Origin: Planctomycetia bacterium
Lineage (GTDB): Bacteria > Planctomycetota > UBA1135 > GCA-002686595
Assembly: GCA_005789645.1 (NCBI GenBank)
Contig: SXXH01000238.1
Span: 1 to 41,563, forward strand
Length of the DNA stretch: 41,563 bases
Reading direction: 5' to 3'
Part shown: positions 3-33,229 of the stretch, in pieces
Numbering within the stretch: position 1 is the stretch's first letter
Layout of the letters: each line of letters starts with the position of its first letter
The notes under the pieces: generated by a model
Seen by the model: only the letters and a program-made list of their open reading frames with translations
Databases searched by the model: none
Told to the model about the DNA's origin: nothing
Made by a program: the position numbers and the translations under genes

Positions 3-1556
3 GGCTTCGGCCCCATGCCGCGCATGGGCGTACACAGGAACGGCGCCTCGCTCGGCTTGCCCAACGCCCCCGGGCGCACTGGTCACGGCCCGGGCAGCGG
101 TCCGGGCGTCGAAAGCGACGCCCTGTCGACCGGCAACGAAATCCCGATGCGCGTCGCCGGCCCCGCCGGCGCGGGCTCGCGCCTGTACTACTCGGTGGAC
201 AAGCACTCGCAAGGCGCGCCCGGCCAAGGCCAGATGCTGAACCGCCGCCTGCGCGGCGAAGCCCAGGCGCGCGAAGCCGGCAGCGACATCTACACGCCGA
301 TCGCCGTGCTCGTCGGCCCCATCGGTCCGGGTGGCACGCCACCGAGTTCGGTGCTGGTCTTCGACGGCGACGGCATCCCCGGCGCTGGTGGCGGCACGGC
401 GCGCGGGCTCGGCCTGCGCGAGCCGAACATCCCGGGCGTCGTCGACACGGGCGACGACCTCGACGCGCTGAACCTCCAGCCCATGGATCCGAGCGAGAAG
501 CTCTTCTTCTCGGTCGACGGCGCCATCGTCGATCCGCACAGCGGCCGTGCCGGAAGCAACACCGCCAACACATTGGGCGTCTCGCCGGCCGCGGTCTTGC
601 GCCGCCAAGGCTCTTCGCTCGGCGTGTACGCGACGCCCGCCCAACTGGGCCTCGACCGCGCGGGCTTCGCCACGGACGACCTCGACGCCCTGATCCTGTG
701 GGACAACGGCGACGGGGTCTACACCCCGAGCCAGAACCCCAACGACTGGGTCGACGCCGACGGCAACCTCGTGGGCGACATGCTGCTCTTCTCGGTGCGG
801 CGCGGCTCGAGCGTCGTGGGGCGTCCCGACTCGAAGTTCGGCCTGCCCATCGAACCGGGCGACATCCTGATGGCGCCGGTCAACGGCGGCACCGAACCGG
901 CCATCTACCTGTCGGCCGAGACGCTCGACCTGAGCACGGCGCGCAGCACCGGCTTCGCCGACGACCTCGACGCGATCGCCATCACGCCGCAGTCGTACTA
1001 CGACTGCAACAAGAACGGCATCGAGGACGCGATCGACATCGCCTGCGGCGCGTCGCTCGACACGAACACCAACCAGATCCCCGACGAGTGCGAGGACGAG
1101 TACTCGAAGAGCTGCTTCTGCACGACCGGCAGCAGCCCGTGCGGCAACGACGATCCGACGGCGGGTTGCGCCAACTCGCTGGGCGTCGGCGCCAGCCTCG
1201 ACCCGAGCGGCTCGACCAGCGTGGCGTCGGACGACCTGGTGCTCAGCGCCAGCCGCATGCCGCCCGGCGCGATGACGATGCTGTTCGTCGGCTCGCGCGG
1301 CAATCCGGTGGCTTTCGGCGACGGCTTGCGCTGCATGACCAACTCGACGCAAGTGGGCATGCCCAACGCGGACGCCCTGGGCAACATGGTGGTCGGTCCA
1401 GGCATGGGCGCCCTCGCCTGCAACTGGAACGGCGTGGGGTGCTTCGATCCGGGCGGCACGCGCCGCTTCCAGGTCTGGTACCGCAATGCGGTCGACTTCT
1501 GCACACCGAGCACCTCGAACCTGACCAACGCGGTGGATGTGACCTTCACGCCCTGA
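3..1556 (+). CDS. Secreted multi-repeat protein with C-terminal Cys-rich planctomycete domain (5' end missing)
   Basis: The frame is open to the left edge of the window, so the true start lies outside; the ATG at 15 is only the first internal one. The visible part has three copies of a DDLDAL-type motif (in GDDLDALNLQ, TDDLDALILW and DDLDAIAIT), each near a short FFSVD/LLFSVRR strand, suggesting a repeated beta domain. A dockerin-like calcium motif (DCNKNGIEDAIDI then DTNTNQIPDECE) follows. The last ~140 residues are the tail also found in the proteins at 13435, 28250 and 30968: Cys motifs, FGDGLRC, RRFQVWYRN and NLTN close to the stop. Function is unknown; a cell-surface or secreted role is inferred. 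About 130 bp separate it from the next gene. Confidence 0.75.
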   Translation, partial: GFGPMPRMGVHRNGASLGLPNAPGRTGHGPGSGPGVESDALSTGNEIPMRVAGPAGAGSRLYYSVDKHSQGAPGQGQMLNRRLRGEAQAREAGSDIYTPIAVLVGPIGPGGTPPSSVLVFDGDGIPGAGGGTARGLGLREPNIPGVVDTGDDLDALNLQPMDPSEKLFFSVDGAIVDPHSGRAGSNTANTLGVSPAAVLRRQGSSLGVYATPAQLGLDRAGFATDDLDALILWDNGDGVYTPSQNPNDWVDADGNLVGDMLLFSVRRGSSVVGRPDSKFGLPIEPGDILMAPVNGGTEPAIYLSAETLDLSTARSTGFADDLDAIAITPQSYYDCNKNGIEDAIDIACGASLDTNTNQIPDECEDEYSKSCFCTTGSSPCGNDDPTAGCANSLGVGASLDPSGSTSVASDDLVLSASRMPPGAMTMLFVGSRGNPVAFGDGLRCMTNSTQVGMPNADALGNMVVGPGMGALACNWNGVGCFDPGGTRRFQVWYRNAVDFCTPSTSNLTNAVDVTFTP

Positions 1557-5374: not shown

Positions 5375-5566
5375 GGCGGTGGTGCTGGGCGGACGAGTGG
5401 CGTGGGGCGGCGCGCACGAAGGACAGTGGCGCGCTGCCGCAGAGCGTAGGCGCACGCTAGGCTGGAATGCACGCCGTGGGCGCGAATGGCCACCCGCCAC
5501 GCCCCCGCCTCGGCCTCCGCCAGCCACATCGACCCGCGCCGCGCCCCGCCCTCGCGCAAGGCCACC

Positions 5567-6802: not shown

Positions 6803-7353
6803 GGTCGCTCGCCGTCTATTGCGGATCGTCGAGCGGCGCCCGACCGGCGTACGCGCGCGCCGCGCGGGAGCTCGGCGCCGGCATGGCCGCGCGCGGCATC
6901 GAGCTGGTCTATGGCGGGGGCAACGTGGGCTTGATGGGCGTGGTCGCCGACGCGGTGCTCGCCGGCGGTGGACAGGTGTACGGCGTGATCCCGCGCTTGC
7001 TGCTGGAACGCGAACTGGCCCACTCGGGCTGCACGCAGCTGCGCGTCGTGGAGACCATGCACGAGCGCAAGATCCTGATGGCCAGTCGCGCCGACGCGTT
7101 CCTCGCGCTGCCCGGAGGCTTCGGCACCTTCGACGAGCTGTGCGAGGTCGTGACCTGGAACCAACTCTCGATCCACGACAAGCCCGTCGGGTTGCTCGAT
7201 GTCGAGGGCTACTGGGAGGCGCTGCTGGCCTTCGTCGAGCAAGGGGTGGTCGAGGGCTTCGTGCCCAAGGCGACGCGCGAGCGGTTGTGGCGCGACGACG
7301 ACCAGGCGCGCTTGCTGGACAGGCTCGGCGCCGCCGTCGCCACGGCGCCTTGA
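6799..7353 (+). CDS. LOG family (TIGR00730) nucleotide 5'-monophosphate phosphoribohydrolase
   Basis: A 184-aa protein of the LOG family, often mislabelled lysine decarboxylase. Its motifs are YGGGNVGLMG (residues 38-47) and PGGFGTFDE (105-113), with the Arg-Lys pair of MHERK (90-91) completing the typical active site. Characterised members release ribose 5-phosphate from N6-modified or plain AMP, giving cytokinin-like bases; the bacterial role is often unclear. GTG 6799 is chosen because it gives VRSLAVYCGSSSG, the canonical N-terminus, and lies within the preceding stop (GTGA overlap). Expression is therefore probably coupled to the upstream thioredoxin-like gene, although no biochemical link is obvious. 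Confidence 0.88.
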   Translation: MRSLAVYCGSSSGARPAYARAARELGAGMAARGIELVYGGGNVGLMGVVADAVLAGGGQVYGVIPRLLLERELAHSGCTQLRVVETMHERKILMASRADAFLALPGGFGTFDELCEVVTWNQLSIHDKPVGLLDVEGYWEALLAFVEQGVVEGFVPKATRERLWRDDDQARLLDRLGAAVATAP

Positions 7354-7444
7354 CGCCCCGAGTTGGCGGATGGCCGCGCCGCGCATTGGCGGGTCTGGCG
7401 GAGACGCGTACCATGGTCCGGGTCGCTCTCGACCACGAGGCTCC

Positions 7445-8713
7445 ATGAACCTTCGTCCTTGCTTGCAGCATCCGTCCAAGTTCGCCATCGCCCTCCGCAC
7501 GCTCGGGCTGCTCGCCGCCTGCTGGGCCTCGGCCTGCACCGATGGCGGATCGGCCTCGCCGACGGCGTCGTCCACGCCGCGCGCGCTGGCGGCAGGGACT
7601 CCCGCCCCGCCTTCACCCCTTCCGCCCTCCCCCGCCGCCGCGCAAGCGGAGACGACCGCGCCGGAGGTCGCCCCGGAATGCGGCGATGGCGCGCCACTCG
7701 ACGAAGCGGCGCCGACTCCCGCCCCCGCGCGCGAGGACGCGGCGCACTTGGAGGCCGAGTGGAAGTCGGCCTTCGACTTGAAGACCAAGGGCGACCATCA
7801 AGCCGCCGCCTTGCTGTTTGAAGCCTTCCATGCCGCGCATCCCGCCGCCGCGCGCGCCGTCGAGGCGCGCCTCGAGGCCGGCAACTCGTGGATCAACATC
7901 GGCTTTCGCGCGCGTACCTGCGGCCGCTCCAATCCGGCGGCCAAGGGAAGCTTCGAACGCGCCAGCGCGCACCTCGAATGGGTCGAGCGCCAGTCCGACA
8001 AGGCGCTGGCGGCGCGCGCGCGCTACTTGCTCGGCAACACGCGCCTCTACGACAACGACCTGCTGGCCGCCACCCACGAGTACACGCTCGTGCTCGAACG
8101 GCACGGCGCGCAGGCGGAGTGGGCGCGACGCGCCTTGGAGAAGCGCGCCGAAGTCCGACGCCACGCGCTCGATCGCGATGGCGCCCTGCTCGACCTCGAG
8201 CTGTACCTCAAGCAATGGTCCGGCGTCGACAAGGACCGCGCGAACCATCTGTCGCGCGTGCGCGCGCAAACCACCGCGCTCGGCCAGCAGGCCAAGCCCT
8301 TCGCCTCGGCCGATTGGGTGCAGGGCGAGCCGCGGCCGCTCGAGAGCCTCCTGGGCGAGGTGGTGGCGCTGTACTTCTTCTCCACGCAATGCAGCTTCTG
8401 CGATGTCGAGCGCGACTGCGTGGCCGACTGGGCTGCGCGACTCGCGGGCAAGGTGCGCTTCGTGGGCGTGCTCGTGCCGCAACAGGACAAGCAGACCGGG
8501 GCGATCACCGAGCCGCTGGAGGTCGCGCGCGCCGAGACGCCCAAGAAGCGCTTCGACTTCCCGGTGGTGTACGACCACAAGCTGCGCATCGCGACCTCGT
8601 TCCTCGCCAGCAAGCCCGACCTGGTGCTGCTCGACCGCGAGGGGCGCGTGCGCTGGCACGACTCGCCCAAGAACCTCCAGCCCGCGACGATCGAACTCCT
8701 GCTCGCCGAATGA
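7445..8713 (+). CDS. TlpA-like thioredoxin-fold lipoprotein, paralogue of the 5567 product
   Basis: 422 aa with the same plan as the product at 5567: lipoprotein signal (LLAAC, Cys26), a Pro/Ala-rich linker, a helical repeat region with matching motifs (AAHP...ARAVEARLEAGNS, LEKRAEVRRHALD), then a thioredoxin fold with CSFC in place of CDNC and the closing motif LLDREGRVRWHD. The pair clearly arose by duplication with the LOG gene between them. The Cys-Ser-Phe-Cys dipeptide suggests a different redox potential from its sibling. It starts 91 bp after the LOG stop and could be in the same transcription unit. It converges with the parvulin gene 48 bp away. Confidence 0.8.
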   Translation: MNLRPCLQHPSKFAIALRTLGLLAACWASACTDGGSASPTASSTPRALAAGTPAPPSPLPPSPAAAQAETTAPEVAPECGDGAPLDEAAPTPAPAREDAAHLEAEWKSAFDLKTKGDHQAAALLFEAFHAAHPAAARAVEARLEAGNSWINIGFRARTCGRSNPAAKGSFERASAHLEWVERQSDKALAARARYLLGNTRLYDNDLLAATHEYTLVLERHGAQAEWARRALEKRAEVRRHALDRDGALLDLELYLKQWSGVDKDRANHLSRVRAQTTALGQQAKPFASADWVQGEPRPLESLLGEVVALYFFSTQCSFCDVERDCVADWAARLAGKVRFVGVLVPQQDKQTGAITEPLEVARAETPKKRFDFPVVYDHKLRIATSFLASKPDLVLLDREGRVRWHDSPKNLQPATIELLLAE

Positions 8714-8761: not shown

Positions 8762-10648
8762 TCAGCGCGCCATGCCTGGCTTGATGCGGACCTCGACCTC
8801 GCGCGCGAGGGTGTTGCGGTACGAACCGATGTCGGTCAGGAACGGGCGCTCGGTGCGCAGTTCCTCGGCCAGTTCCGCCTTGGCTTCCTCGAAGGAGACC
8901 TTGCGGCGCTCCAGCACATGGAAGGCCACCCACGCCGATCCGTAGGACAGCGCGGCTGTCGTGCCGCCCACCGGTTGGCCCAGCACCGCGTCCGCCAGCG
9001 CTTGCGGCACTGAATCGGCGCGGAAGCGACCGGGGCGGCGGCCGCCCGCTTCGCGCGTCGCGAGGTCCTCGCTCGCCTCGCGCGCGAGGTCGGCGAACGA
9101 CTCCCCCGCCGTGGCACGCGCCAACAAGGCCGCCAGCTCGATCCTCGCCGCCTCGGAAGCACGCGCCAATTCGGCCTCGACCGCCTCGCGCGACGGCTCG
9201 CCGGCGGGCAGCGAACCCTTGATGCGTCGCACGATCCAGGCGACCTCGAAGCGCTCGCCCTCGTCTCCGTAGGCGGCGATGTAGCGTTCGCGGAGGGCGC
9301 GCTCGTCGACCACGCGCTCCCTGAGCATCAGCTTCTCGGCCAGGAGATCGATGCGCCAACGCTCGGCCAGCGAAGCGCGGAACGACTCCTCGGTGCGGTT
9401 GGCCCGGCGCAGGAAGGCCAGCCAACCTTCGCGTTGGCGCTTGAAGCCCTCGTCGATCATCGTCTCGATGTGCTCGTCGACGCGCGCGCGCACCTCGGCT
9501 TCGGTCACCGACACGCCCGCGGCCGCGGCCTTGCGCTCGACGGCCCAGTCCTCGACGAAGCGCGTCAAGGCCGTCTCGCCCTGCCAATACAGGAGGAAGC
9601 GCGCGTACTCCGCGCGGCCGACCGGCTCGCCATCGACCAGCATCACAGGCAAGTCGCCCCCGCCCTGTTCGCCCTTGGAAGGCGCCTGCCACATCTGCGG
9701 CAGCACCTCGACCTTCGTGTTGACGTGCAACGGCTCGAGGATGGCACCCACCTCGTCGGGTTCCGGCCCCTTCTCGGCCAGCATGGCGACGATGGCCGGC
9801 CGCGCCGCCTCCAGCTCCGTGGCCTGCACCGCGCGCACCTTGACCAGCCACCAACCGCCCTTGCCTTGCAGCGGTTGGGACAACTCGCCCACGGCGAGCT
9901 TGGCGAGTTCGTCGTGGAAGCCCTTGGGCCAACCTTCATCGCGGAAGGAACTGGGCACGCCGCGTCCATCGCGCGTGTCGGGATCTTCGCTGGTCTCGCG
10001 CGCGACCTTGCCGAAGTCCTCGCCGGCGGCGATGCGCGCGCGCGCGGCCAAGGCGCGGGCCTTGGACTTGGACCAAGCCTCTTCTTGGGCCTGCTTGCGC
10101 GCTTCGGTGTCGGACTGGGCCGAGGAGCGCACTTCGGCTAGGTAGAAGCTCATCGACAACTCGTAGCGGCGACCAAGCTTGCCGTGCAGCCGTTCCCACT
10201 CGCGCACGATCTTGTGCTCGGGGACCACGCGCCCGATCGAGGCCATCTTCCGCGCCAGGAGATGAGGACGCGCCTCGATCTCGCGTTGCCGTCTCGCTCC
10301 CGCCTCGGTGCGCCCCGTGCGCGCGAACTCCGCGCGCCACTCGTCGAGGTTGCCGAAGAACGCATGTTGGATGCGTTCGTCGAAGTCGCGCTGCACTTGC
10401 GCGGACAGCTCCTCCTGCGACAACTCGACGCCGACGGCGCGCGCGGCGCGCTCGACAGCGACCTGCTCGGCGCCATACACGCGCGCCAGGCGCTCGCCGT
10501 GCGTCAGCAGCAGCCAAGAGGCGTACGCATCGGGCGCGATGCACACACCATCGAGCTCGACCACCGCCTCTTCCGCCGCCGGTGCTTGCATGGCCAGGGA
10601 GTGGGTCGAAGCGATGGAGAGCAGCAGGGCGAGGATCATCGTTCGCAT
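8762..10648 (-). CDS. Exported double-parvulin (PpiC/SurA-type) peptidyl-prolyl isomerase
   Basis: A 628-aa exported protein starting at the ATG that opens the signal peptide (MRTMILALLLSIASTHSLA). Two parvulin modules are visible. The first (~residues 135-285) contains GEDFGKVARETSEDP and the hydrophobic WWLVKVRAV closing strand. The second (~470-600) contains GESFADLAREASEDL, the Gly-rich stretch and WVAFHVLERR. Each is preceded by helical SurA-N-like sequence, so the protein looks like two fused SurA units. Its expected role is folding of exported or outer-membrane proteins. It stands alone; the upstream 355 bp are AT-rich and shared with the divergent gene at 11004. Confidence 0.83.
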   Translation of the reverse strand: MRTMILALLLSIASTHSLAMQAPAAEEAVVELDGVCIAPDAYASWLLLTHGERLARVYGAEQVAVERAARAVGVELSQEELSAQVQRDFDERIQHAFFGNLDEWRAEFARTGRTEAGARRQREIEARPHLLARKMASIGRVVPEHKIVREWERLHGKLGRRYELSMSFYLAEVRSSAQSDTEARKQAQEEAWSKSKARALAARARIAAGEDFGKVARETSEDPDTRDGRGVPSSFRDEGWPKGFHDELAKLAVGELSQPLQGKGGWWLVKVRAVQATELEAARPAIVAMLAEKGPEPDEVGAILEPLHVNTKVEVLPQMWQAPSKGEQGGGDLPVMLVDGEPVGRAEYARFLLYWQGETALTRFVEDWAVERKAAAAGVSVTEAEVRARVDEHIETMIDEGFKRQREGWLAFLRRANRTEESFRASLAERWRIDLLAEKLMLRERVVDERALRERYIAAYGDEGERFEVAWIVRRIKGSLPAGEPSREAVEAELARASEAARIELAALLARATAGESFADLAREASEDLATREAGGRRPGRFRADSVPQALADAVLGQPVGGTTAALSYGSAWVAFHVLERRKVSFEEAKAELAEELRTERPFLTDIGSYRNTLAREVEVRIKPGMAR

Positions 10649-11003
10649 GGCGCGCACCTTGGTAGGGCCAGAGGGTGCCAGATCATTCGAAGCCAACCCA
10701 TTCTCGTTTGCGATACCCATTTAAAATCGATGCCACTCTCTACGGCGAGCGCATAATCTCAACATTCAACTGACGCAAATGGCGAAAAAACATTGACTTA
10801 CGAGTGCATACCACAATAGATGATGCTAGGCACTGCAAACATCTTGCATTTCAACAACCCATCCCTAGAATGCGTCCTCGTAACGAAGCGATCTGGCTCG
10901 GCGGGACTTCCCGCGTCGTCGGCTGACCCAGAGGCTTCTCCCCAGCGATGCGTGAGCCGATCATCCGCGGATCGCAAGCTTCTCCAAACACTGATCGAGC
11001 AAC
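10649..11003. other. AT-rich divergent intergenic region
   Basis: 355 bp between the parvulin gene (-) and the first exported paralogue (+). It is the most AT-rich stretch here, especially 10690-10870, and probably carries promoters for both. A TTGACT hexamer lies at 10793-10798 on the plus strand. A small hairpin (GCGGG/CCCGC, 10901-10914) sits in what would be the long leader of the gene at 11004. A 64-codon frame (10820-11014) overlapping that gene's start has no protein-like features. Confidence 0.5.
10793..10798 (+). promoter_or_regulatory. Candidate -35 box of the 11004 gene
   Basis: TTGACT lies 211 bp upstream of the start, in AT-rich DNA. No good -10 is found at 17 bp; GATGAT at 10819-10824 is 20 bp away. 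The paralogue at 12316 has a perfect TTGACA about 229 bp upstream, and both hexamers are followed by a TACG, which is the main support for a shared signal. Confidence 0.25.
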
Positions 11004-11942
11004 ATGAAGAATAGCCTCCTCGCGACGCTGGTTCTCGCCGGCGTCTCCGGTTCCGCCTTCGCTGGCACCACCCAGCCGGGCAGCCTCCTCCTCTTCCCCC
11101 TCTTCGACAACGCCCGTGGCGACGAGACCTTCCTCACCGTCACGAACACGAACGCCACCGACTCGGTGACGATCGAGTACGTCTACATCGACGGCTACGA
11201 CTGCCTCGAGTTCAACCGCACGCGCAACCTGACGCCGAACGACACGCTGACGGTTCGCACGAAGAGCGACAACCCCAACATGGTCACCGGCTACTGCTAC
11301 GTGTTCGCCAAGAACGCCGCGGGCGCCGTGTCCTTCAACCACCTGATCGGCTCCGCCCTCATCAACGACGGCAGCACGGGCAGCGACTACGAAATCCAGC
11401 CGTACACCTTCGAAGCCGTCGGCGCCAAGGGCACCGCTACGGACGTCGACGGCAACGGCGTGCGTGACATGGACGGCGTCGAGTACGAAGCCGCTCCGGA
11501 CGCGCTGCACATCCCGCGCTTCATCGGCCAGGGCGCTGCCACGACGGACCTCATCCTCATCAACCTGACGGGTGGCGCTTCCTTCACGGCCATCGTCGAC
11601 TTCCTCGTCTACAACGACAACGAAGAAGTCTTCTCGGCCCAGAAGTCGGTCCAGTGCTGGGACAAGTACACCCTGACCCAAGTGTCGGGCCTGTTCAGCG
11701 ACTCGTTCCTCGCCGGCACCAACAACGCCGCGGGCGAAAGCCTCGGCGGCGCCGAGACGGGCTGGTACTCGATGAAGGGCCGCCTGAGCTTCAGCTCGGC
11801 CGACTCGGAAGCGAACCCGGCCATCCTGGCCCTGCAGGTCGAGCGTCGCGGCTCGAGCTACGGCGCGGTCGCGGCCCTGCCGTACGGCACGGGCGCCCGC
11901 ACCAACGGCGGCCTGATCTTCCACGGCCCGTTCATCCCCTGA
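11004..11942 (+). CDS. Exported protein of unknown function, tandem paralogue 1
   Basis: 312 aa with a clear Sec signal peptide (MKNSLLATLVLAGVSGSAFA, cleavage before GTTQPG). The mature part is beta-rich and acidic: PGSLLLFPLFDNARGDE near the N-terminus, a Cys pair in YDCLEFNRTR and GYCYVFAK, then INLTGGASFTAIVDF, YNDNEE and ETGWYSMKGRLSFSS. The next gene encodes a closely similar protein with the same motifs in the same order. Codon use is strongly biased to C-ending codons, suggesting high expression, and a strong hairpin follows the stop. I do not recognise a named family; an abundant surface or secreted protein is an inference. Confidence 0.82.
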   Translation: MKNSLLATLVLAGVSGSAFAGTTQPGSLLLFPLFDNARGDETFLTVTNTNATDSVTIEYVYIDGYDCLEFNRTRNLTPNDTLTVRTKSDNPNMVTGYCYVFAKNAAGAVSFNHLIGSALINDGSTGSDYEIQPYTFEAVGAKGTATDVDGNGVRDMDGVEYEAAPDALHIPRFIGQGAATTDLILINLTGGASFTAIVDFLVYNDNEEVFSAQKSVQCWDKYTLTQVSGLFSDSFLAGTNNAAGESLGGAETGWYSMKGRLSFSSADSEANPAILALQVERRGSSYGAVAALPYGTGARTNGGLIFHGPFIP

Positions 11943-12030: not shown

Positions 12031-12315
12031 CTCGCTTTCACCGCGGATCGCGTGGCGCGGACCATTCCGAACTTCGTCCTGTTTGCTTGACACTACGCAC
12101 TTCGCCGCTGGCCTGCGGCCCCGCTCGGCTGCGCACAAGGCGGCGACGCTCCCCCTCCACGCGACGAATGTCGGCGCTTCCCGCCCTCGCGCATCTTGCG
12201 CCTCCGAACGGGAAGGCGGCGCGAGGCCTGCGGCCGCACTTCCGGACCACCACGACTCCCGGTCCGCGGCAGCCTCGCCCGGTCCGACTGAACGAACGAT
12301 CGAGAGATGGCCACC

Positions 12316-13305
12316 ATGAAGAAGTCCCTGCTCTGCGCGCTCCTCTGCGCCGCCACCAGCCTGCCCGCCCTGGCCGAGGGGCAACGCCCCGGCAGCCTGC
12401 TGGTCTTCCCCTTGGTCGACAACTCTCGCGGCGACGAGACTTGGTTGACCGTGACCAACCTCGCCAGCGGGGCTTCGACCAGCACCGTGGCGGTCGAGTT
12501 CATCTACGTGCGGGGCAACGACTGCCTCGAGTTCAACCGCACGCGCATCCTCACGCCCAAGGACACGATCACGGTCCGCACCAAGAACGACAACCCGCAG
12601 ATGGCCGCCGGCTACTGCTACGCGTTCGCCAAGGACCCGGTCAGCGGCCTGCCGATCACCCACAACTTCCTGATCGGCCGCGAGGTCGTGCTGATCGGCA
12701 TGACGATGCAGACGATCGAGATCCCCGCCATCCCCTTCGTGGGCCTCGGCACGCAGGGACAAGGCACGGATCGCAACGGCAATGGCCGGCGCGACTTCGA
12801 CGGCCTCGAGTACGAGCCGGTGCCCGAAGAGCTGCATGTGCCGAGCTTCGTCGGGCAGACGCCGCAGGTGCCGCCGTTCATCTCGCGCAACGAACTGGTC
12901 TTGATCAACTTGACGGGCGGAGCGGCCTTCACCGCCGTGGTCGACTTCCGCATCTACAACGACAACGAAGAGGCCTTCTCGGCCCAGACGAGCTTCAGCT
13001 GCTGGACGCGTCGCCAGCTGCTGGACATCAGCGGGGTGTTCAGCCAGGGCTTCTTGTTCTTCACCAACCACAACCCGCTCGAGAGCTGGCCGCAGGCCGT
13101 CGGCGTCCCTTTGCCCGACCTCGAGACGGGCTGGTACACGATCGACGGCAACGTCGCCTTCAGCTCGGCCGACAGCGAACAGGATCCGGCGCTGCTCGCG
13201 GTCCAGATCGAGCGCAACTACTTCGGCTACAACGCGAGCCTGCCGTGGGCCACGGGCACCCAGACCAACGGGACCCTGCTGCTCTTGGGCAACCAGTACC
13301 CGTGA
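12316..13305 (+). CDS. Exported protein of unknown function, tandem paralogue 2
   Basis: 329 aa from ATG 12316 (MKKSLLCALLCAATSLPALA signal peptide); GAGAG lies 9 bases upstream. An in-frame ATG at 12307 would add three residues and overlaps no better ribosome site. The mature protein mirrors the product at 11004: RPGSLLVFPLVDNSRGDE, NDCLEFNRTRILTP, GYCYAFAK, INLTGGAAFTAVVDF, IYNDNEEAFSAQ and ETGWYTIDGNVAFSSADSE. It differs by insertions around residues 125-190. The 285-bp gap from the upstream hairpin suggests its own promoter. Function is unknown; the duplication argues for a structural or surface role. Confidence 0.82.
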   Translation: MKKSLLCALLCAATSLPALAEGQRPGSLLVFPLVDNSRGDETWLTVTNLASGASTSTVAVEFIYVRGNDCLEFNRTRILTPKDTITVRTKNDNPQMAAGYCYAFAKDPVSGLPITHNFLIGREVVLIGMTMQTIEIPAIPFVGLGTQGQGTDRNGNGRRDFDGLEYEPVPEELHVPSFVGQTPQVPPFISRNELVLINLTGGAAFTAVVDFRIYNDNEEAFSAQTSFSCWTRRQLLDISGVFSQGFLFFTNHNPLESWPQAVGVPLPDLETGWYTIDGNVAFSSADSEQDPALLAVQIERNYFGYNASLPWATGTQTNGTLLLLGNQYP

Positions 13306-13434: not shown

Positions 13435-14259
13435 TCAAGGCAGCCAGGAGACGGTGTAGGCATTCGTCAGGTTCGAACTGAAGCCGCCGCACGCGCCTGC
13501 GCCATCGAGGTACCAAGCTTGGTAGTGGCGCGTGCTGCCGGGCGGAACGAAGCCGCGCAACGACACGGACTGTTCGCCCGGCTCGGGCAGGCGGGCCACG
13601 CCGAAGCTCACGGTCTTCACGCCGAGGCGCACCACGTTGCCGCCCGCGCAGCGCAAGCCGTCGCCGAACGCGACCCCGGCTCCCGCCCCTAGCAAGGTGC
13701 TGCCTTGGATGAAGGTCACGTTGTTGCCCTCGGGCAGGCCGTTGATCCACAGCTGCAAGCTGTCGGATCCGAGGCTCGCGCCGCCGGAAGCGCGCAGGCG
13801 GCCCCCGACGAGGATGGAGCTGCGGCACCCCACTGGTTCGCCGCCACCGTTGCCGCAAGGACAAGCTGCCAGCGTGCCGAAGCAGGCCGCGACGCCCGGC
13901 GCGGGGCGGGCGACTTGGATGGCGCCTTTCATCTGGATGGTGAAGTGCGGCGCGCAGAAGTACTCGTAGCGATCGCCCACGCGCGGGTTCGCGGCGAGGA
14001 AGGCGTCGCTGAAGACGACCGAGTAGCTCTGCACTCCCGAGGTCAGCGACGAGTGGAAGGCCTCGTTGCCGTTGACGACCCCATCCACGCCCTCTGTCGC
14101 GGTGTGGGAGCCGCTGGTCCACACGAAGCGCACCGTGTCGCCTGGGTTGACCACGACTTCGCGCGGCGTGAAGAAGAAGCCCACCTGCTGGACCACGACT
14201 GTCTCCGCGAAAGCGGGAGCGGAGTGCAACAGGGCGAAGAGCAGGGCGAGGATCCTCAT
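13435..14259 (-). CDS. Exported plastocyanin-like cupredoxin with planctomycete C-terminal domain
   Basis: 274 aa. The signal peptide is MRILALLFALLHSAPAFA; that ATG (14259) is used although the frame is open further. Residues 20-120 are a type-1 copper domain with all four ligands: His52 (GSHTAT), Cys102, His105 and Met110 (FCAPHFTIQMKG). Residues ~135-274 are the shared tail: CFGTLAACPCGN, a GCR..S turn, SDSLQLWI, FGDGLRC, RHYQAWY and NLTNAYTVSWLP at the stop. The copper domain should transfer electrons or bind copper outside the cytoplasm; the tail is probably a sorting, anchoring or folding module. It lies downstream of the radical SAM gene on the same strand, 202 bp away. Confidence 0.87.
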   Translation of the reverse strand: MRILALLFALLHSAPAFAETVVVQQVGFFFTPREVVVNPGDTVRFVWTSGSHTATEGVDGVVNGNEAFHSSLTSGVQSYSVVFSDAFLAANPRVGDRYEYFCAPHFTIQMKGAIQVARPAPGVAACFGTLAACPCGNGGGEPVGCRSSILVGGRLRASGGASLGSDSLQLWINGLPEGNNVTFIQGSTLLGAGAGVAFGDGLRCAGGNVVRLGVKTVSFGVARLPEPGEQSVSLRGFVPPGSTRHYQAWYLDGAGACGGFSSNLTNAYTVSWLP

Positions 14260-25173: not shown

Positions 25174-26360
25174 CGCCCGCGCTCGAGGCGACGCCAACGT
25201 TCGCCGGCGGCGAGGCGCCGTGCTTGATCGCCACGCTCGGACCACAGCGCCTCCAAGCGCTTCCATGCCGCCGCATCCGTGCCCGCGAGCTCCTCGACGC
25301 GCGCGGCCACCTGTCCGGCGAAAGCACTCGACGGCGCGATCAAGTCGAGCGCCTGCAAGTGCGCCGGCAGGTCGTCGCCCCGGAGCGCCAACCAACGACG
25401 CAGCGCCTGTTCGGCGCGCCGCGCGTCCCCCAGCGCATGGTGGACCAGGGCTCGCTGACGCGGTAGTTCGGGATCCCCGGGCGCGTACTCCTCGTCGGAC
25501 TCGAGTTGGCGCAAGCGCGCCGCGGCGTTCGACAACTGCTCGAAGCGCGCCCGCTCGAGCTTGGCGGCCTCGAGATCGCCTTGCTCCTGCAGCACCTGCG
25601 CCAAGACGAAGCGTGGCGCCGAATCGAAGGCGTCGAGCTCGACAGCCTTGCGCGCCGCGACCAGCGCGCGCGCAAGGTCCTCGTCGTCGTGGGCCAAGCG
25701 AGCGAGCCAGGTCCAAGCCTCGACATGCGTTGGCTTCGCCGCGACGACCTCCTCGAGCAAGGCGCGCGCGCGCACGGTCTCGCCGAGCCGCGCCAAGGAC
25801 AACGCCAGTCCACGCCGCGCCTCCACGTCGCGCGGCGCCGCGCGCAAGACGGCCTCGTAGTGTTCGCGCGCCTCGCCGTGGCGACCAAGCGTGTACAACG
25901 CATGGCCCAGCACGCGCGTCTCGCCCACGCGATCCGGACACTCCTCGAGGTAGCGGCGAGCGCACGCCACGGCGTCGGTGTGGCGCTGCAGGCGAAAGTG
26001 GAGCACGGCGCATTGGTGCAACGCGGGCGGCCAGCCAGGTGTTTCGTCGAGCAACGCGTACAACTCGACCAAGGCCGCGATCGGCGCGCGACGCTCCAAC
26101 GCGGCGAGCGCCGAGCGGTAGCGCGGCGGCAGATCCTCGGGGCGCAACGCCTTGGGATCGAAGCGCGTCCATCGCCCCGCGCTGGAGCGCGGCAATGTAG
26201 CGGGGTCGCGCGCCAACGCGGCTCGTTCCGCGTCGGACAAGTCGCCGCGCACGGGTGAACTTCCGGCCCGCGAAAGGTCCGAGTTGGTGGGGCTCGACGC
26301 GCTCGAAGCGTCCTGCACTTGCACGAGGACGGCCAAGGCCAACCAAGGAAGCAGGCTCAC
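25170..26360 (-). CDS. Exported TPR protein coupled to the ASPIC/UnbV gene
   Basis: 396 aa. The GTG at 26360 (MSLLPWLALAVLV signal-like segment) overlaps the stop of the upstream gene by 4 bp. After a linker, residues ~95-330 are TPR units: APIAALVELYALLDETPGWPPAL, YTLGRHGEAREHYEAVLRAAPRD, LARLGETVRARALLEEVVAAKPTH, then a last block with LVHHALGDARRAEQALRRWLALRG. TPR proteins are regular partners of ASPIC/UnbV proteins, and the coupling suggests a shared complex outside the cytoplasm. The C-terminus is basic (WRRLERGR). Confidence 0.82.
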   Translation of the reverse strand: MSLLPWLALAVLVQVQDASSASSPTNSDLSRAGSSPVRGDLSDAERAALARDPATLPRSSAGRWTRFDPKALRPEDLPPRYRSALAALERRAPIAALVELYALLDETPGWPPALHQCAVLHFRLQRHTDAVACARRYLEECPDRVGETRVLGHALYTLGRHGEAREHYEAVLRAAPRDVEARRGLALSLARLGETVRARALLEEVVAAKPTHVEAWTWLARLAHDDEDLARALVAARKAVELDAFDSAPRFVLAQVLQEQGDLEAAKLERARFEQLSNAAARLRQLESDEEYAPGDPELPRQRALVHHALGDARRAEQALRRWLALRGDDLPAHLQALDLIAPSSAFAGQVAARVEELAGTDAAAWKRLEALWSERGDQARRLAAGERWRRLERGR

Positions 26361-28003
26361 TTGCCCGCCCCTTCCTCGGGCGACGCAGGCTCCACCACGA
26401 CCAGCAACTGATCGACGGTCGGCGTCGCGACGACGACCGATCGACCCGAGAGGAAGCGCACTTCGACGCTCGCCACCGCGGCGCAAGCTCCCAAGCCAAA
26501 GTGCGCCTCGGCTGGCACGGCGGCCTGGTAGCCGCCGCTGGTTCGAATCTCGGCGGCGCGCCGGTTGCCGCAGGCGTCCACGATCACCCGCGCGCCCAAG
26601 GCATCGACCTTGCCGCCGGGGAGCTTGGCGCGCACACGCAGATGGTGGCGGTCGGAGTCGCGCACGGCGCGATTCAAGAGCACGTCGACCGGCCCGTCGA
26701 GCCGCGTGGCGACGAGGTCGAGGTCGCCGTCGCCATCCAGATCCCCAGCGGCGGCGGCGCGCGAAACACGCGTGCCCGCCACGAGCGGCGCCTCCACGAA
26801 GCGCAGCTTCCCATCGTTCAGGAGGAGCTGCGCACGTTGGGCATAGCTCGTGTCCGTCCCGGGCAGGTCGGCCTGCGGGTAGACATGCCCGTTGAACACG
26901 GCGAGATCGAGATCGCCATCGAGATCGAAGTCCTGCATGGAAGCTCCCCAACCAAGCAGCGGGATGCTGGGTCCGCTGATGCCGGCCGCCATGCCTCGTT
27001 CGCGATAGCCGCCGCTCTTGGTCGAACAGTACAACGGCGTCGCTTCGCCGCTGAACACCGTCACATAGAGGTCGTCGCGCAGATCGCCGTTGAGATCGCC
27101 CGCGGCGATGCCCATCGCGGCCATCTCGCGGCCGTTGGAGTCGTGCGACACACCACGCGCGAAAGCCACCTCGCGAAAGACGCCGGCGCCGTCGTTCTCC
27201 CAAAGGAAGTTGGGCATCGAGTCGTTGGCCACGAACAGGTCCGTGTCGCCATCCGCGTCGTAGTCGAGGGCCATCACGCCCAGTCCATAGCTCGGCGTCT
27301 GCGTCCCGATGCCCGACTCCTTGGTGGCGTCGACGAAGGTCCCGTCTCCACGCCCCTTGTAGAAGCGGTCGGCCTGCGGCGCGAGGCCCTCGGGACCGCA
27401 CATGACGGCATGGCCCTTCCAACGGCAGGCGCCGCTGGCGCGCGACTTGACGAACTGGGTGGAGAACTCGAGGTAGCGCGCGACATACAAGTCGAGCGCG
27501 CCGTCGGCGTCGGCGTCGAACAGCGCGGCGCTGGTCGACCAATCGCCCGGCTCGCCGAGGCGCGCCGACTCGCGCCAGCCCTCTGCGCCGTTCAAGAGCA
27601 CGCGCACCTGCCCTTGGTCGGTCAGCACGAGGTCGAGCCGCCCATCGCCGTCGATGTCGCCGGTCCCACCGCCCGAACCGAGTCTCAAGGCAGGCAAGGC
27701 CCAGCGTTCGCCGCCGCTCGCGAAAGTCCCGTCGCCCTTCCCGAGGAACAAGCGCGCGGGACGGGCGGGCTTGCCGGACTCGGCGGCCTCGGCGGTGGAG
27801 CCGTCGACCAGGACGAGGTCGAGCACGCCATCACCGTCGAAGTCGCCGAGCAGCACGCCGCCGCCATTGACCTCGGCGATCCAATCCTTGCGCGCACCTC
27901 CGTAGGCCGACTCCACTCCCGGCAACGCGCGCTCGGAGATGTCCTCGAACAGGGTGGGCGGCGCCGACTGCGGCACTTGGAGCAGGAGGAGCGAAGCAAG
28001 CAT
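26357..28003 (-). CDS. Exported FG-GAP/VCBS protein with ASPIC/UnbV C-terminal domain
   Basis: 548 aa from ATG 28003 (signal peptide MLASLLLLQVPQSAPP). Seven FG-GAP-type calcium loops follow, for example DFDGDGVLDL, DIDGDGRLDL, DADADGALDL, DYDADGDTDL and DLDGDGDLDL, predicting a seven-bladed beta propeller. Residues ~455-540 are the ASPIC/UnbV (CRTAC1-like) domain: LRVRAKLPGGKVDALGARV, GYQAAVPAEAHFGLG, VEVRFLSGRS. A secreted, calcium-dependent binding protein is expected; the ligand is unknown. It is translationally coupled to the TPR gene. Confidence 0.9.
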   Translation of the reverse strand: MLASLLLLQVPQSAPPTLFEDISERALPGVESAYGGARKDWIAEVNGGGVLLGDFDGDGVLDLVLVDGSTAEAAESGKPARPARLFLGKGDGTFASGGERWALPALRLGSGGGTGDIDGDGRLDLVLTDQGQVRVLLNGAEGWRESARLGEPGDWSTSAALFDADADGALDLYVARYLEFSTQFVKSRASGACRWKGHAVMCGPEGLAPQADRFYKGRGDGTFVDATKESGIGTQTPSYGLGVMALDYDADGDTDLFVANDSMPNFLWENDGAGVFREVAFARGVSHDSNGREMAAMGIAAGDLNGDLRDDLYVTVFSGEATPLYCSTKSGGYRERGMAAGISGPSIPLLGWGASMQDFDLDGDLDLAVFNGHVYPQADLPGTDTSYAQRAQLLLNDGKLRFVEAPLVAGTRVSRAAAAGDLDGDGDLDLVATRLDGPVDVLLNRAVRDSDRHHLRVRAKLPGGKVDALGARVIVDACGNRRAAEIRTSGGYQAAVPAEAHFGLGACAAVASVEVRFLSGRSVVVATPTVDQLLVVVEPASPEEGAGK

Positions 28004-28085
28004 GCGCACGCTCGAGTCTAGGCCGCGGCGGCGACGCGCGCCACGCGTCGCACGCGTGCTTTGCAGGATGGGGCCACCGGCGGAG

Positions 28086-28101
28086 CCCCCCCGGGGGGGG
28101 G
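28086..28101. repeat. C7G9 homopolymer block
   Basis: Seven C followed directly by nine G in the gap between the subtilase and ASPIC genes. Such tracts are prone to slippage, and to sequencing error. Confidence 0.8.
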
Positions 28102-28249
28102 CGGTCGGCGAGCGGCCTCGAGGCGCAGGACGGCGCGCGGGGCGACGAACTTGCAAGGTACGCTGACGGAGGCCGGGACTCGTCGGGATCGCCGACCAGG
28201 CCCGGCTGTCAACTTCACCTGACAACCGCCGCGTGGCGGCGCGCGCCCT

Positions 28250-30727
28250 TCACGGAGTCCAGACCACCGACAGGCCGTTGGTCAGGTTGAAGGTCTCCGC
28301 CGCGCAGAACGCCGCGGCGTTCCTGTACCAAGCCTGGTAGGTGCGCGTGCCGGGCGCGGTGACATAGAAGCTGATCGGCAGATCCACCAGATCTGGGTAG
28401 CTCGAAGCACCCGACACGTTGACCTTGGCGCCCAGGCGCACCACCGACCCCGCGGCGCAACGCAAGCCATCGCCGAAGCTCGAACCAAGGCCCCCGTTTT
28501 GCTGGGTGGTGCCTTGGAAGTACAGCGCCGTGCTGTTCGCCATGGCGGTGCCACGCAACCTGAAGTCGTCGTTCACGAGGTTCGCGGTGCCCGTGCCGCG
28601 CAAGGTGCCGGCCGTGCCCAGCGAGTTCAGGCAACCGGCGTTGGAGCCCGCGGGGGATGCATTGCCGCACGGGCAAGCCGAGCCAGATCCATCGCCGAAG
28701 CAGAACGGCGTGCCCGAAGCGATGACCAGATCGCCAGTCGCCACCACCGCGTAGCCGCAGGGACCTTGCGGCACGGATGCGCCCACCACACGAACGGTCC
28801 ATGTGCCGGGCAGCGGAGCGTTGAAGGTGGCGCGCTCGACATTGTTGATCGCGTCGGCTGTGCCGCCGGAGATGGTGGCGCCCGAGGCGTACACATTCCC
28901 GCGGTGGAGCGTGCCGTTGGGAGAAACCACCTCGAGGTTGAGGTTGTTGACCGCTGCGTTGGTGGCGTTGACCGCGCCGGCGAAGTCGGTGAAGGCCATG
29001 GTGATCTCGAGCGGCTGCGTCGAGGTGGCGACGTCGATCGTGTAGGTGCGCGTGGCTCCTGTGGTCACCCCCGCGGCGCGGCGCACATCGACCAGCCACA
29101 TGCGGCCTGGATCCCCCGGCAAGCGCAACGACTCGTCGAGCACGATGCGCCCCCAACCTTCGGTGTTGTTCGGCACCGTGGCGGAGACGCCGGTCATGTC
29201 CTGGCACGTGTTGAGCAAGGTGGCCTTGACGAGCGCCGCCGTGGGCGTGAATGCGTCGCCCGCGTTGGCCGAGCCGGAGGGGTGGTACCCCTCGAGGTAG
29301 TACTGGCGCACGAGAGCCGCGGCCGCCGTGGCGGCCGGACAGGCCATGCTCGTGCCCGACAGCGAGCTGGTCCCGCACGAGGCGGTCGAGGCGGACACGA
29401 TGTTCGTGCCTGGCGCGAACAAGTCCGGCTTGCGCCGCCCGTCGGAAGTCGGCCCGACGCCCCCACCGCCCTTGCTCATGTAGGAAGCGCCGTTCAGCGC
29501 GTTGCCCACGGCCAGCAAGTTCTTGGCGTTCTCGGGGTTCTTGAGCGTGGACAAGTTCGTCTCGGCGAACAGCACGAGGTTCTCCTCGTTGGCCCACATG
29601 AAGGCGTCGATCGCGTTGCAATGCGAGTTGTACGCGGTCGTGCTGTCGTTGCCCCACGAGTTGGTGTGCAAGCGCGCGCCGTTGTTGCGGTGCGTCGTCG
29701 CGAGCGAACTCCAAGCCGCGGCCGAGTAGTTGCTGCTGTGGGCCAGTCTCGAGAGATAGGCGAGGCCGCGGTTGGCGGTCGAGCCGTTGACCGGCTGCGC
29801 GTCGCCCGCCACCGTGCCGGCGGTGTGGGTGCCATGCAGGTCGGCCGCGCCCGACCCGGAGGTGTAGACGATCTTCCTGTGGCTCGGTCCGATGGGATTG
29901 GCCGGATCGGAGAAGTAGCACGAACCGGACGCCAAGGGGCCATCCATGTGGCCGATGATCTGTCCATCCCCGCGCAATCCGGCGTCCCATAGGCGACGGC
30001 TGTTGGTCGAAGCCGTCTGCACGGACCAAGTCATGGTCGTGTTGCGCGTGGTGACGAGGCTCTCGGGCTCGACCCATTGCACGTCGGCGAGGCGCGCGAG
30101 ATCCCGCGCGAGACCCGCGCGTGCTGGGACCAGCAGCAGCCAGCGGCCGACCTGCTCGTGCACTTCGGCCACCTCGACGCCCAGGGACTCGACTTGGGAG
30201 CGCAAGGCTGCGGCGGAGACGCCAGCGAAGCCAAGCACCGCGAGGCGGGCGGGCGCGGTGCCGGCGAGGAGCGCGGGTTCGATGCGCCAAGCGGGGTGGA
30301 GCGGCGCCGACCACGCCACCAGGCCCGCGGCGGCGCCAGCGTCGACCATGGTGGAAGTGCCGCGCACGATCCAAGCCCGGCTGGGGATGTAGTCCATCAG
30401 CTCGAGGCCGAGTGCACGCAATCCTTGCTTGTTCACTTCGTCGACCTCGGAGTCGAGTTGCACCAGGAAATAGCTCGAATCGGCGCGTTCGACGCGCAAC
30501 TCCTCGGGAAGGGCCGGGCCGGCGCCGCGAGTGTCGAAGCCCCCCAAGCGCAGCGAGAGCCAGCGCGGAGCTTGGGCCAAGGCGTTGGCTTCATCGAAGG
30601 ATGGAGTCCGCGAGGGTTCGAGCTGCACCTGTCGCGCTGCCGCGGGAGCCACGCAGATCCAAGCGATTCCGAGGACCAGCGAAAAAGTGCCGAGAGGAGA
30701 TCGAGATGTTGTGCGGATTGGCTGCAT
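28250..30727 (-). CDS. KP-43-like subtilisin-family (S8) protease with planctomycete C-terminal domain
   Basis: 825 aa from ATG 30727 (MQPIRTTSRS, then a hydrophobic signal core). Residues ~75-225 resemble a propeptide. The catalytic triad is Asp262 (GQIIGHMDG), His298 (DLHGTHTAGT) and Ser460 (LSGTSMACPAA), with oxyanion Asn391 in FAETN. The beta domain after the catalytic part (ITMAFTDFAGAVNATN, NNLNLEVVSPNGTLHRGN) is typical of KP-43-type S8 proteases. The last ~150 residues are the shared tail: CFGDGSGSACPCGN, GCLNSLGTAG, FGDGLRC, RTYQAWYRN, FNLTNGLSVVWTP. It is expected to act outside the cytoplasm. It lies 240 bp downstream of the FG-GAP gene, whose product has a nearly identical tail. 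Confidence 0.9.
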   Translation of the reverse strand: MQPIRTTSRSPLGTFSLVLGIAWICVAPAAARQVQLEPSRTPSFDEANALAQAPRWLSLRLGGFDTRGAGPALPEELRVERADSSYFLVQLDSEVDEVNKQGLRALGLELMDYIPSRAWIVRGTSTMVDAGAAAGLVAWSAPLHPAWRIEPALLAGTAPARLAVLGFAGVSAAALRSQVESLGVEVAEVHEQVGRWLLLVPARAGLARDLARLADVQWVEPESLVTTRNTTMTWSVQTASTNSRRLWDAGLRGDGQIIGHMDGPLASGSCYFSDPANPIGPSHRKIVYTSGSGAADLHGTHTAGTVAGDAQPVNGSTANRGLAYLSRLAHSSNYSAAAWSSLATTHRNNGARLHTNSWGNDSTTAYNSHCNAIDAFMWANEENLVLFAETNLSTLKNPENAKNLLAVGNALNGASYMSKGGGGVGPTSDGRRKPDLFAPGTNIVSASTASCGTSSLSGTSMACPAATAAAALVRQYYLEGYHPSGSANAGDAFTPTAALVKATLLNTCQDMTGVSATVPNNTEGWGRIVLDESLRLPGDPGRMWLVDVRRAAGVTTGATRTYTIDVATSTQPLEITMAFTDFAGAVNATNAAVNNLNLEVVSPNGTLHRGNVYASGATISGGTADAINNVERATFNAPLPGTWTVRVVGASVPQGPCGYAVVATGDLVIASGTPFCFGDGSGSACPCGNASPAGSNAGCLNSLGTAGTLRGTGTANLVNDDFRLRGTAMANSTALYFQGTTQQNGGLGSSFGDGLRCAAGSVVRLGAKVNVSGASSYPDLVDLPISFYVTAPGTRTYQAWYRNAAAFCAAETFNLTNGLSVVWTP

Positions 30728-30787
30728 GACTTGTGGACCTGTGTGGCGCTTGGCGCGGGAGACGCTACGCCAGCCGCTGGACGGAGG

Positions 30788-30816
30788 CTCGTCGGCCCGG
30801 GATCCTTGCCGACGAG
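30788..30816 (-). terminator. Hairpin downstream of the FG-GAP gene
   Basis: A perfect 9-bp stem (CTCGTCGGC/GCCGACGAG) with an 11-base loop, in the gap between two minus-strand genes. It lacks a U tract, so the terminator call is weak. Confidence 0.4.
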
Positions 30817-30898
30817 GATTCGAGCAAGCCGTGCGGCCGCTGCTTGGAGGCGAGCAGTCCCTCCAAGCGACACCAAGGGCCGAGCCCGGACTTCCAAG

Positions 30899-30912
30899 CG
30901 AGTTCGAACTCG
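30899..30912. promoter_or_regulatory. 14-bp perfect palindrome upstream of the subtilase gene
   Basis: CGAGTTCGAACTCG, 172 bp upstream of the subtilase start. It is the size and symmetry of an operator for a dimeric repressor; no regulator is identified. Confidence 0.3.
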
Positions 30913-30967
30913 TGCACACCGCGTTGTCCACGAGCGCGCCGGCCGGCCGTGGCGGCTCGATCCCCGC

Positions 30968-33229
30968 TCAGGGGGCCCACGCCACCGACAAGCCGTTGGT
31001 CAGGTTGAAGGTCTCCGCCGCGCAGAACGCCGCGGCGTTGCGATACCAGACCTGGTAGGTGCGCGTGCCGCCGACCGGCACCGCGCCGCGCACCGAGATC
31101 GACGGATCGCCGGCGCCGGGGAAGGTCGACTGTCCAGCGGCGTTGACCTTGGTGCCGAGGCGAATGACCGACCCGGCGGCGCAGCGCAAACCGTCGCCGA
31201 AGACGGTGCCCAGGCTCGCGCCGGCCTGCGTAGTGCCTTGGAAGTACAGCGCGGAACTGTTCGCCATGGCGGAGCCGCGCAACTGCAAGCTGTCGGCCGC
31301 GATGCTGGCCACGCCGAAGCCGCGCAGCGCTCCAGCCGTGCCAAGCGAGTTGAGGCAACCAGCCGCGGCTCCCGCCGGCGACGCGTTGCCGCACGGACAA
31401 GCGGCGCCGGAACCATCGCCGAAGCAGTACGGCGTGCCGGTATCGGTCGCGGGCAAGACGAGCGTGGGCAAGGCGACCATGGTCGTGTTGCCGCTCCAAT
31501 CGACGAAGCGCAGCTGCCGCGCGATGCCGGTGCCGGCACCCGCGCCGGGCGCCGTGGTGGCGAAGCGATACTGCTGGCCACCTTGATGCAGGCCTTGCGC
31601 GCTGGTCCACGCCCCGGGGGCGACCGTGAAGTTGGCCGAGCCGCCCTGGCTGGTCGTCACGGCATACGAGCCCGGCACGACGCACCCGACCACCAAGGTC
31701 GCGCTCGGCGCGACATTGCCCGACCATGGACGCGGACCAGCGACCTGCACGCTGGCGCTCGTGGGCCCTTCGTTGCGCAACGCGAGCAGCGTGCCCGCCG
31801 GGACGCTCGCGGGCAGCGGCAAGACCGCGCCGTTGAAGCCCACCGCCACCTCGTTGGCGATGGCCGACACGGGAATCGACTCGATCCAGCCGCGCACGTG
31901 GTTCACGCCGTCGTCCAGCACTTGGTCGCGGATCTTCGCCTTGGCGATCCAGGGCCCGCTGCCACCGGCCGCGGAATCGGCCTGCACGGCCACCACCACC
32001 GGCGCGCGAGCGTCGATGGCGCCCGTGTTGCGGTAGAACTTGTTGGTGTACACGCCCGACTCGCCCTGCACGGTGATGATGTCGTGGCGTCCGTCGTTGT
32101 TCAGGTCGGCGATGGCCACATCGAGCGTCGAGTCGGCTTGAGCTTGGATCACGCCCGCGAGCGTCATCGTGCCCGCGCCGTTGTTGGCGTAGATCTTCTC
32201 GCTCGAGCCCAGCGAACCGACCACCACGTCGTAGTCGCCATCCATGTCGTGGTCGAACAAGGCGATCTCGTTGTCGTCGTCGGCGCCGTAGGTCTGCTGC
32301 TGGGTGTAGTTGAAGGTGCCCGCGGCCAGGTTGCTCCGCAGCGTGCCTTCCACGAAGCCCGACAGCGACACGAAGACGAGATCGAGGTCCGCGTCGCCAT
32401 CGAGGTCTCCCAAGTCGACCTCGTAGGTGTTGCCGGAGGCGCTGGCGATCAGGTTCGAGCGGTCGGTGAAGGCGCCCGTGCCGTCGTTCGTCATCAAGTA
32501 GTGCGCGCTGCCGGCGGTGGTGCCCTTGTTGGACCCCAGGAAGTCGATGTCCCAATCGCCGTCGAGATCGGCGAGCTGCACGTCCATCTGCCCGCGCTTC
32601 AAGGGCACCGTGGCCGCGAAGGCCGCGTCCTCGACGAAGAAGCCCGCGCCATCGTTGCGGTAGAGCCGCGGCCGGCGCGTGGTGGCGGCCGAGGTGTTGT
32701 ACGCGTCGTTGATCATGACATCGAGGTCGCCGTCGTCGTCGATGTCGCCGAAGGCGGCGCCGCCCGAGTTGAGCAGAGTGGTGAAGCCGCGCGCCGCGCC
32801 TTCGAAGTCGAAGAAGCCCGGCTGCGCCGCGCCGCGGTTCATGTAGAGGAAGGGCAGCTGCGTCGAGAAGGCGTTGGCGAACAAGGCGTCGGTCCAGCCA
32901 TCGCCGTCGAGGTCGCCGGTCGTCACGCCCTTGGCGTTCGAGGTGTGCGTGCCGAGGCGCGCGATCGACTCGTCGACGATGGTCCAGCTCTGGCCTTGGG
33001 AATGCTGGTTGATCCACAGGCGGTTTTGGCGCTGGGTGCCCGCGGAGGCGAAACCGTCGCCGTCGGCCACGAAGATGTCGAGGTCGCCGTCCTGGTCGAC
33101 GTCGGCGCACTCGACCCCTTCGCTCCAGAAGGCCGTGCCCGGGAAGGCGGTGACTTGCTGGAACTGCTGGGCACCCGCGGACGCGGAGAGGAGGACCGGC
33201 AGGGCAAGGGCGGTGAGGGGCTGCTTCAT
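30968..33229 (-). CDS. Exported FG-GAP repeat protein with planctomycete C-terminal domain
   Basis: 753 aa from ATG 33229 (signal peptide MKQPLTALALPVLLSASAGA). At least six FG-GAP/VCBS calcium loops are present (DVDQDGDLDI, DLDGDGWTDA, DIDDDGDLDV, DLDGDADLDL, DHDMDGDYDV, DLNNDGRHDI), then a beta-sandwich-like region (~400-600). The ~150-aa tail is almost identical in motifs to that of the subtilase: CFGDGSGAACPCGN, GCLNSLGTAG, MANSSALYFQGTTQ, FGDGLRCAAGSV, RTYQVWYRNAAAFC, FNLTNGLSVAWAP. A secreted or surface adhesion-like role is inferred. Divergent from thiE. Confidence 0.88.
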   Translation of the reverse strand: MKQPLTALALPVLLSASAGAQQFQQVTAFPGTAFWSEGVECADVDQDGDLDIFVADGDGFASAGTQRQNRLWINQHSQGQSWTIVDESIARLGTHTSNAKGVTTGDLDGDGWTDALFANAFSTQLPFLYMNRGAAQPGFFDFEGAARGFTTLLNSGGAAFGDIDDDGDLDVMINDAYNTSAATTRRPRLYRNDGAGFFVEDAAFAATVPLKRGQMDVQLADLDGDWDIDFLGSNKGTTAGSAHYLMTNDGTGAFTDRSNLIASASGNTYEVDLGDLDGDADLDLVFVSLSGFVEGTLRSNLAAGTFNYTQQQTYGADDDNEIALFDHDMDGDYDVVVGSLGSSEKIYANNGAGTMTLAGVIQAQADSTLDVAIADLNNDGRHDIITVQGESGVYTNKFYRNTGAIDARAPVVVAVQADSAAGGSGPWIAKAKIRDQVLDDGVNHVRGWIESIPVSAIANEVAVGFNGAVLPLPASVPAGTLLALRNEGPTSASVQVAGPRPWSGNVAPSATLVVGCVVPGSYAVTTSQGGSANFTVAPGAWTSAQGLHQGGQQYRFATTAPGAGAGTGIARQLRFVDWSGNTTMVALPTLVLPATDTGTPYCFGDGSGAACPCGNASPAGAAAGCLNSLGTAGALRGFGVASIAADSLQLRGSAMANSSALYFQGTTQAGASLGTVFGDGLRCAAGSVIRLGTKVNAAGQSTFPGAGDPSISVRGAVPVGGTRTYQVWYRNAAAFCAAETFNLTNGLSVAWAP

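Follow-up and report, generated by a model that had tools for sequence, protein, structure and literature searches.

A C-terminal tail shared by unrelated exported proteins of Planctomycetota is a candidate sorting or anchoring domain

The window, which is the whole stretch of 41,563 nucleotides analyzed here, encodes four proteins that end at the stop codon in a common Cys-rich tail of about 150 residues. The original prediction had placed a shared C-terminal domain on four proteins, and all four are real. Protein 3-1556 is encoded on the + strand. The coordinates given for the other three (13435-14259, 28250-30727, and 30968-33229) are right, and all three are on the - strand, which had been left unstated. 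The features of the four genes are as follows.

3-1556, + strand: tailed protein, 5' end cut by the window, N-terminal part without a Pfam match
1095..1556, + strand: C-terminal tail (Cys-rich subtype) of protein 3-1556, stop codon included
13435..13902, - strand: C-terminal tail of the cupredoxin-domain protein, stop codon included
13903..14259, - strand: signal peptide (MRILALLFALLHSAPAFA) and plastocyanin/azurin-like cupredoxin cargo (PF00127, E 7.6e-10)
28250..28720, - strand: C-terminal tail of the subtilase, stop codon included
28721..30727, - strand: exported subtilisin-like protease cargo (PF00082, E 1.2e-23)
30727, - strand: ATG start of the subtilase cargo, N-terminus signal-peptide-like
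30968..31444, - strand: C-terminal tail of the FG-GAP protein, stop codon included; first row of the modelled alignment (A2), pLDDT 96.3
31445..33229, - strand: exported FG-GAP repeat cargo (PF13517, E 1.7e-33)

The N-terminus of the FG-GAP protein, MKQPLTALALPVLLSASAGAQ, is a signal peptide by eye; the automatic rule did not accept it. The last ~150 residues of the four proteins can be aligned end to end, up to the stop, and their similarity is far above chance: in six-frame translation, the tail of protein 3-1556 recovers the other three with E-values of 3e-19, 5e-17, and 3e-14. The ordered motifs are found across the four tails as originally described, with the small exception that the cupredoxin protein has GCRSS instead of GC-x-NS. 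The N-terminal parts are indeed unrelated, being a cupredoxin (PF00127), a subtilase (PF00082), an FG-GAP protein (PF13517), and one part without a Pfam match.

The source genome, from a lake planctomycete, is 3.6 Mb in 330 contigs and 72% complete. With the tail of protein 3-1556 as a query, 76 places in the whole genome were detected at E <= 1e-3 (six-frame translation). An HMM was built from the four window tails and iterated over the fetched loci, and 77 Cys-rich tails were recognized with it in the source genome, 75 of them at the last residue and 2 within 2 residues of it. The contigs of three other planctomycete assemblies (uncultured planctomycete Erken-D8_bin-0018, LacPavin_0920_WC90_MAG_71_14, and "new MAG-30") include 133 more tails. 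Among the 131 in complete frames, 130 end no more than 2 residues before the stop, and no protein has more than one. In the lone exception (L089), 35 residues follow a match that is itself partial; decay or a frameshift may explain this copy. The C-terminal position proposed for HMM hits is thus almost invariable (77/77 in the source genome and 130/131 in the others).

Signal peptides, whose presence on every tailed protein had been proposed as a check, are strongly enriched. A simple and crude rule, several of whose misses are signal peptides by eye, accepted 144 (77%) of the 188 tail proteins whose 5' end is intact; among long ORFs without a tail on the same contigs, it accepted 57 of 402 (14%). 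Sec export of the cargo is supported by these predicted signal peptides. The cargo is diverse: the matches of 72 N-terminal parts are spread over 49 Pfam families, each with four members at most. They include RCC1, FG-GAP, subtilase, reprolysin-like, amidase, endonuclease I, CBM96, and phosphoesterase families, as well as GBD_T9SS_assoc, PPC, and TSP_3 domains. No conserved linker or cleavage motif was found in the 40 residues preceding the tail. No dedicated partner gene is evident beside the tail genes; to judge by the beginnings of their sequences, the most frequent neighbour families seem generic.

Six cysteines are found at columns 5, 14, 16, 26, 82, and 135 of the Cys-rich profile. All six are present in 180 of 210 tails, and the commonest alternative is column 82 alone. 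Because the cysteines come largely as a block of six, they would suit three disulfides. Strongly conserved columns include FGDG-x-RC, Q125, W127-Y128-R129-N130, N141-L142, N144, and W150. The terminal motif YQ-x-WYRN ... NLTN-GL-x-V-x-W-x-P* is conserved, and the final predicted strands reach the stop. AlphaFold2 with 64 aligned tails predicted a compact beta-rich fold (mean pLDDT 96.3, pTM 0.92). Foldseek against PDB returned no match at E <= 0.001 for this model (best 0.065, TM-score 0.41). A match to an already described domain had been named as a refuting outcome, and none was found: searches of Pfam, NCBIfam, and PDB sequences gave no family that matches the Cys-rich tail.

Genomes that are almost tail-free by the Cys-rich profile contain C-terminal relatives without the Cys block. 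An alignment of such tails (~125 residues), designated A8, matches the Cys-rich tails with an hhalign probability of 99.3 and an E-value of 8e-21. Judged from this sequence comparison, the Cys-rich tails make up one subtype within a larger superfamily. The original label "Cys-rich" thus suits one subtype but not the superfamily, many members of which have no cysteine block. A wider profile gave 83 matches in the source genome, about 15 of them new, which brings its tails to ~91. Searches with A8 gave no match in Pfam or NCBIfam and no convincing one in PDB. Its predicted fold is an eight-strand beta domain (pLDDT 90.7), with weak Foldseek neighbours in PDB (best E 0.0023, TM-score 0.39). Among 111 complete ORFs at A8 loci, 107 stop no more than 4 residues past the match and 3 at 6 residues. 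The sole clear internal case is L215 (locus on G002, 1150-3369, - strand), in which 113 residues of Calx-beta-type appearance follow the domain.

The two subtypes can be carried by orthologous cargo. In the pair L058 and L072, the N-terminal cargo can be aligned over 878 residues at 46% identity, but the tails differ, one having YCIGAPNS and no Cys block, the other being Cys-rich with CPCAN. Since orthologous cargo can have either subtype, the cysteines are not the defining feature, and the swaps indicate that the subtypes probably do the same job. In 38 reciprocal best cargo pairs between the source genome and the three others, tails are mostly inherited with their cargo; where cargo identity is high, the most similar tail in another genome usually belongs to the ortholog. 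Concerted evolution of tails inside a genome was considered and is not seen, as most close pairs match the ortholog's tail best across genomes.

Of the 61 genomes sampled from the GTDB family, 41 have many matches to the Cys-rich profile and the other 20 have 0-4; the profile has none in 16 genomes of seven other families in the same order. Absence of the tail from 20 of the 61 genomes holds for this profile only, as a preliminary wider profile matches all 61. Across Planctomycetota, A8, which may overlook distant forms, matched 54 of 246 genomes and left 192 without a match. The positive genomes include all 16 sampled from the order and members of other families, e.g., f15, f27, f33, f43, f47, f71, and f75. 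Restriction to one GTDB family is therefore wrong for the superfamily. Genomes usually have many copies or zero: 48 of the 54 positive genomes have six or more matches, the highest counts per genome in this search being at least ~17.

Co-occurrence with a specific transport or peptidase gene, which the original prediction had raised, did not appear for the candidates searched. SprA_N (PF14349) was found in 0/61 family genomes, a weak negative as the control genomes are also silent, and PorV (NF033709) in 0/61 above the cut-off. The C25 peptidase (PF01364) is present in 133 of 246 genomes of the phylum and does not correlate with the superfamily (32/54 positive versus 101/192 negative genomes, p 0.44). 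In two loci (G095:C119:42447-43844 and G258:C330:23372-24769), a C25 (gingipain-like) peptidase and a superfamily tail share the same 709-codon frame. C25 is thus a cargo there, in an arrangement that mirrors that of gingipain and its CTD. Exosortase (PF09721) is anti-correlated with the Cys-rich tail. It was not found in the source genome, as far as the 72% recovered goes, and it occurs in 6 of 41 family genomes with the Cys-rich tail versus 14 of 20 without (Fisher p 3e-5), or, by genus, 4/25 versus 13/17 (p 1.3e-4). It looks as if one sorting route replaced another, and shared ancestry within the family may contribute in part to the association.

That none of SprA_N, PorV, and C25 emerged as a partner is compatible with a folding or stability cap, i.e., a generic terminal domain that shields secreted proteins from proteolysis and is recognized by nothing in particular. 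The compact and often disulfide-rich fold would suit such a cap. However, the conservation of YQ-x-WYRN and NLTN exceeds what a mere cap needs, and a generic cap need not be missing from 192 of 246 genomes. This explanation is considered improbable.

A C-terminal sorting-like domain is a known kind of thing, and the nearest counterpart is the CTD of the type IX secretion system (T9SS). That CTD folds as an Ig-like beta-sandwich, and its last 22 residues carry the export signal (PMC4804311). Like the planctomycete tail as predicted, the T9SS CTD (Por_Secre_tail, TIGR04183/PF18962; RgpB CTD) is a beta-structured C-terminus on many unrelated Sec-exported cargos, and the terminal strands are strongly conserved in both. 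The planctomycete tail lies at the extreme C-terminus, its cargo carries Sec signal peptides (144/188 by the simple rule), and its models are confidently beta-rich, with no PDB match at E <= 0.001 to set beside the Ig-like sandwich. It differs in being larger (125-155 residues) and, in one subtype, Cys-rich. T9SS sorting-domain profiles of Pfam and NCBIfam gave no hit, either with whole proteins or with 64, 24, and 26 tails. It is very unlikely that the tail is a true but divergent T9SS sorting domain. The common logic of a Sec signal peptide plus a C-terminal beta-rich domain, the similar cargo repertoire including GBD_T9SS_assoc, PPC, and TSP_3, and the C25 peptidases of some tail genomes would fit one, but no sorting-domain model matches, the GTDB family yielded neither SprA (with its control silent) nor PorV, and C25 is uncorrelated.

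The tails of GlyGly-CTERM, LPXTG, and MYXO-CTERM proteins are short, with a hydrophobic helix and a basic end. The planctomycete tail, in contrast, is predicted to be a soluble folded domain. GlyGly-CTERM/rhombosortase (PMC3237569), LPXTG/sortase, and MYXO-CTERM likewise put a C-terminal label on many cargos. The PEP-CTERM/exosortase system has a common C-terminal homology region on many cargos (PMC1569441), and, as with the planctomycete tail, it is present in some genomes and missing from others. Unlike PEP-CTERM, the planctomycete tail has no PEP motif, transmembrane helix, or basic cluster, and no NCBIfam CTERM model matches it. The earlier statement that the tail differs from T9SS and PEP-CTERM tails thus agrees with the models of both. 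As it fails to match either, it is not filed under T9SS or PEP-CTERM; it may still work alike. No paper describing the tail was found in the open-licence literature, and it appears to be an undescribed family in the sources searched, belonging to no described one.

FN3 and Ig-like adhesin modules are beta-sandwich-like, as predicted for the tail, but as a class they are not terminal-only, and the best Foldseek E-values, 0.065 for the Cys-rich and 0.0023 for the wider form, come with TM-scores mostly below 0.5. These neighbours bear on the main rival to the sorting reading, a surface- or matrix-binding module. Such a domain would bind polysaccharide, lipopolysaccharide, or a stalk or S-layer component, and would tether secreted enzymes to the cell without taking part in outer-membrane transport. 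The beta-rich fold predicted for the tail and its conserved aromatic and Arg residues would suit it, as would the weak structural neighbours, which include FN3, adhesin repeats, and polysaccharide monooxygenases, and the cargo of proteases, CBM96, and FG-GAP proteins is what cell-surface enzymes would be expected to include. Binding modules are usually found at either end, in tandem, or internally. The planctomycete tail, however, is single and nearly always terminal, and no structural match is significant. The binding module is regarded as rather unlikely, while deserving more weight than the other alternatives.

The reading preferred here, with moderate confidence, is that the tail is a folded C-terminal sorting or anchoring domain that works in the manner of the T9SS CTD and represents a separate, undescribed superfamily of Planctomycetota. 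It follows from the T9SS CTD pattern of a single terminal domain, unrelated exported cargos, and many or no copies per genome. The sorting or anchoring signal proposed in the original prediction accords with the C-terminal position, the signal peptides, and the lack of any described domain; a specific partner gene did not emerge among the three T9SS components and exosortase. The position, cargo diversity, and spread of the tail are observed and its fold is predicted, whereas recognition, translocation, cleavage, and anchoring are inferred. Under this sorting reading, the cargo would cross the inner membrane by Sec, and the tail would fold in the periplasm, where the Cys-rich subtype could form up to three disulfides. 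A putative outer-membrane receptor or translocon would recognize its C-terminal strands and take the cargo to the surface, where it would be released or retained. More tentatively, and at somewhat less than even likelihood, the tail could mark cargo for an outer-membrane system that Planctomycetota dedicate to secretion or surface attachment. This system would lie outside the described numbered ones and would be used, in related forms, in about a fifth of the genomes sampled, the subtypes perhaps being read by paralogous receptors.

To our knowledge, protein delivery to the planctomycete cell surface is poorly known. A tail that occurs about ninety times in a single incomplete genome and is missing from Pfam, NCBIfam, and PDB offers a handle on surface export. 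It marks a large group of exported proteins, so that hypothetical proteins can be placed, and its profile of presence and absence can be used to seek the transport machine.

Several other genes of the window encode exported or peptidase-like proteins. Two adjoining, similar exported proteins (11004-11939 and 12292-13302, + strand) both have the motif PGSLL-FPL-DN-RGDET-LTVTN, and neither has the tail; the former is without a Pfam match, and the latter has relatives on at least two other fetched loci. An exported PpiC-type peptidyl-prolyl isomerase, periplasmic chaperone-like, is encoded at 8765-10720 (- strand). An angiotensin-converting-enzyme-like peptidase (3539-7471, - strand; PF01401, E 2e-94) occupies the last ~570 codons of a 1311-codon frame, and its true start is probably much further inside the frame. 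Directly downstream of two tailed proteins, an FG-GAP/ASPIC-UnbV protein without the tail (26360-28225, - strand) is a possible natural control for localisation.
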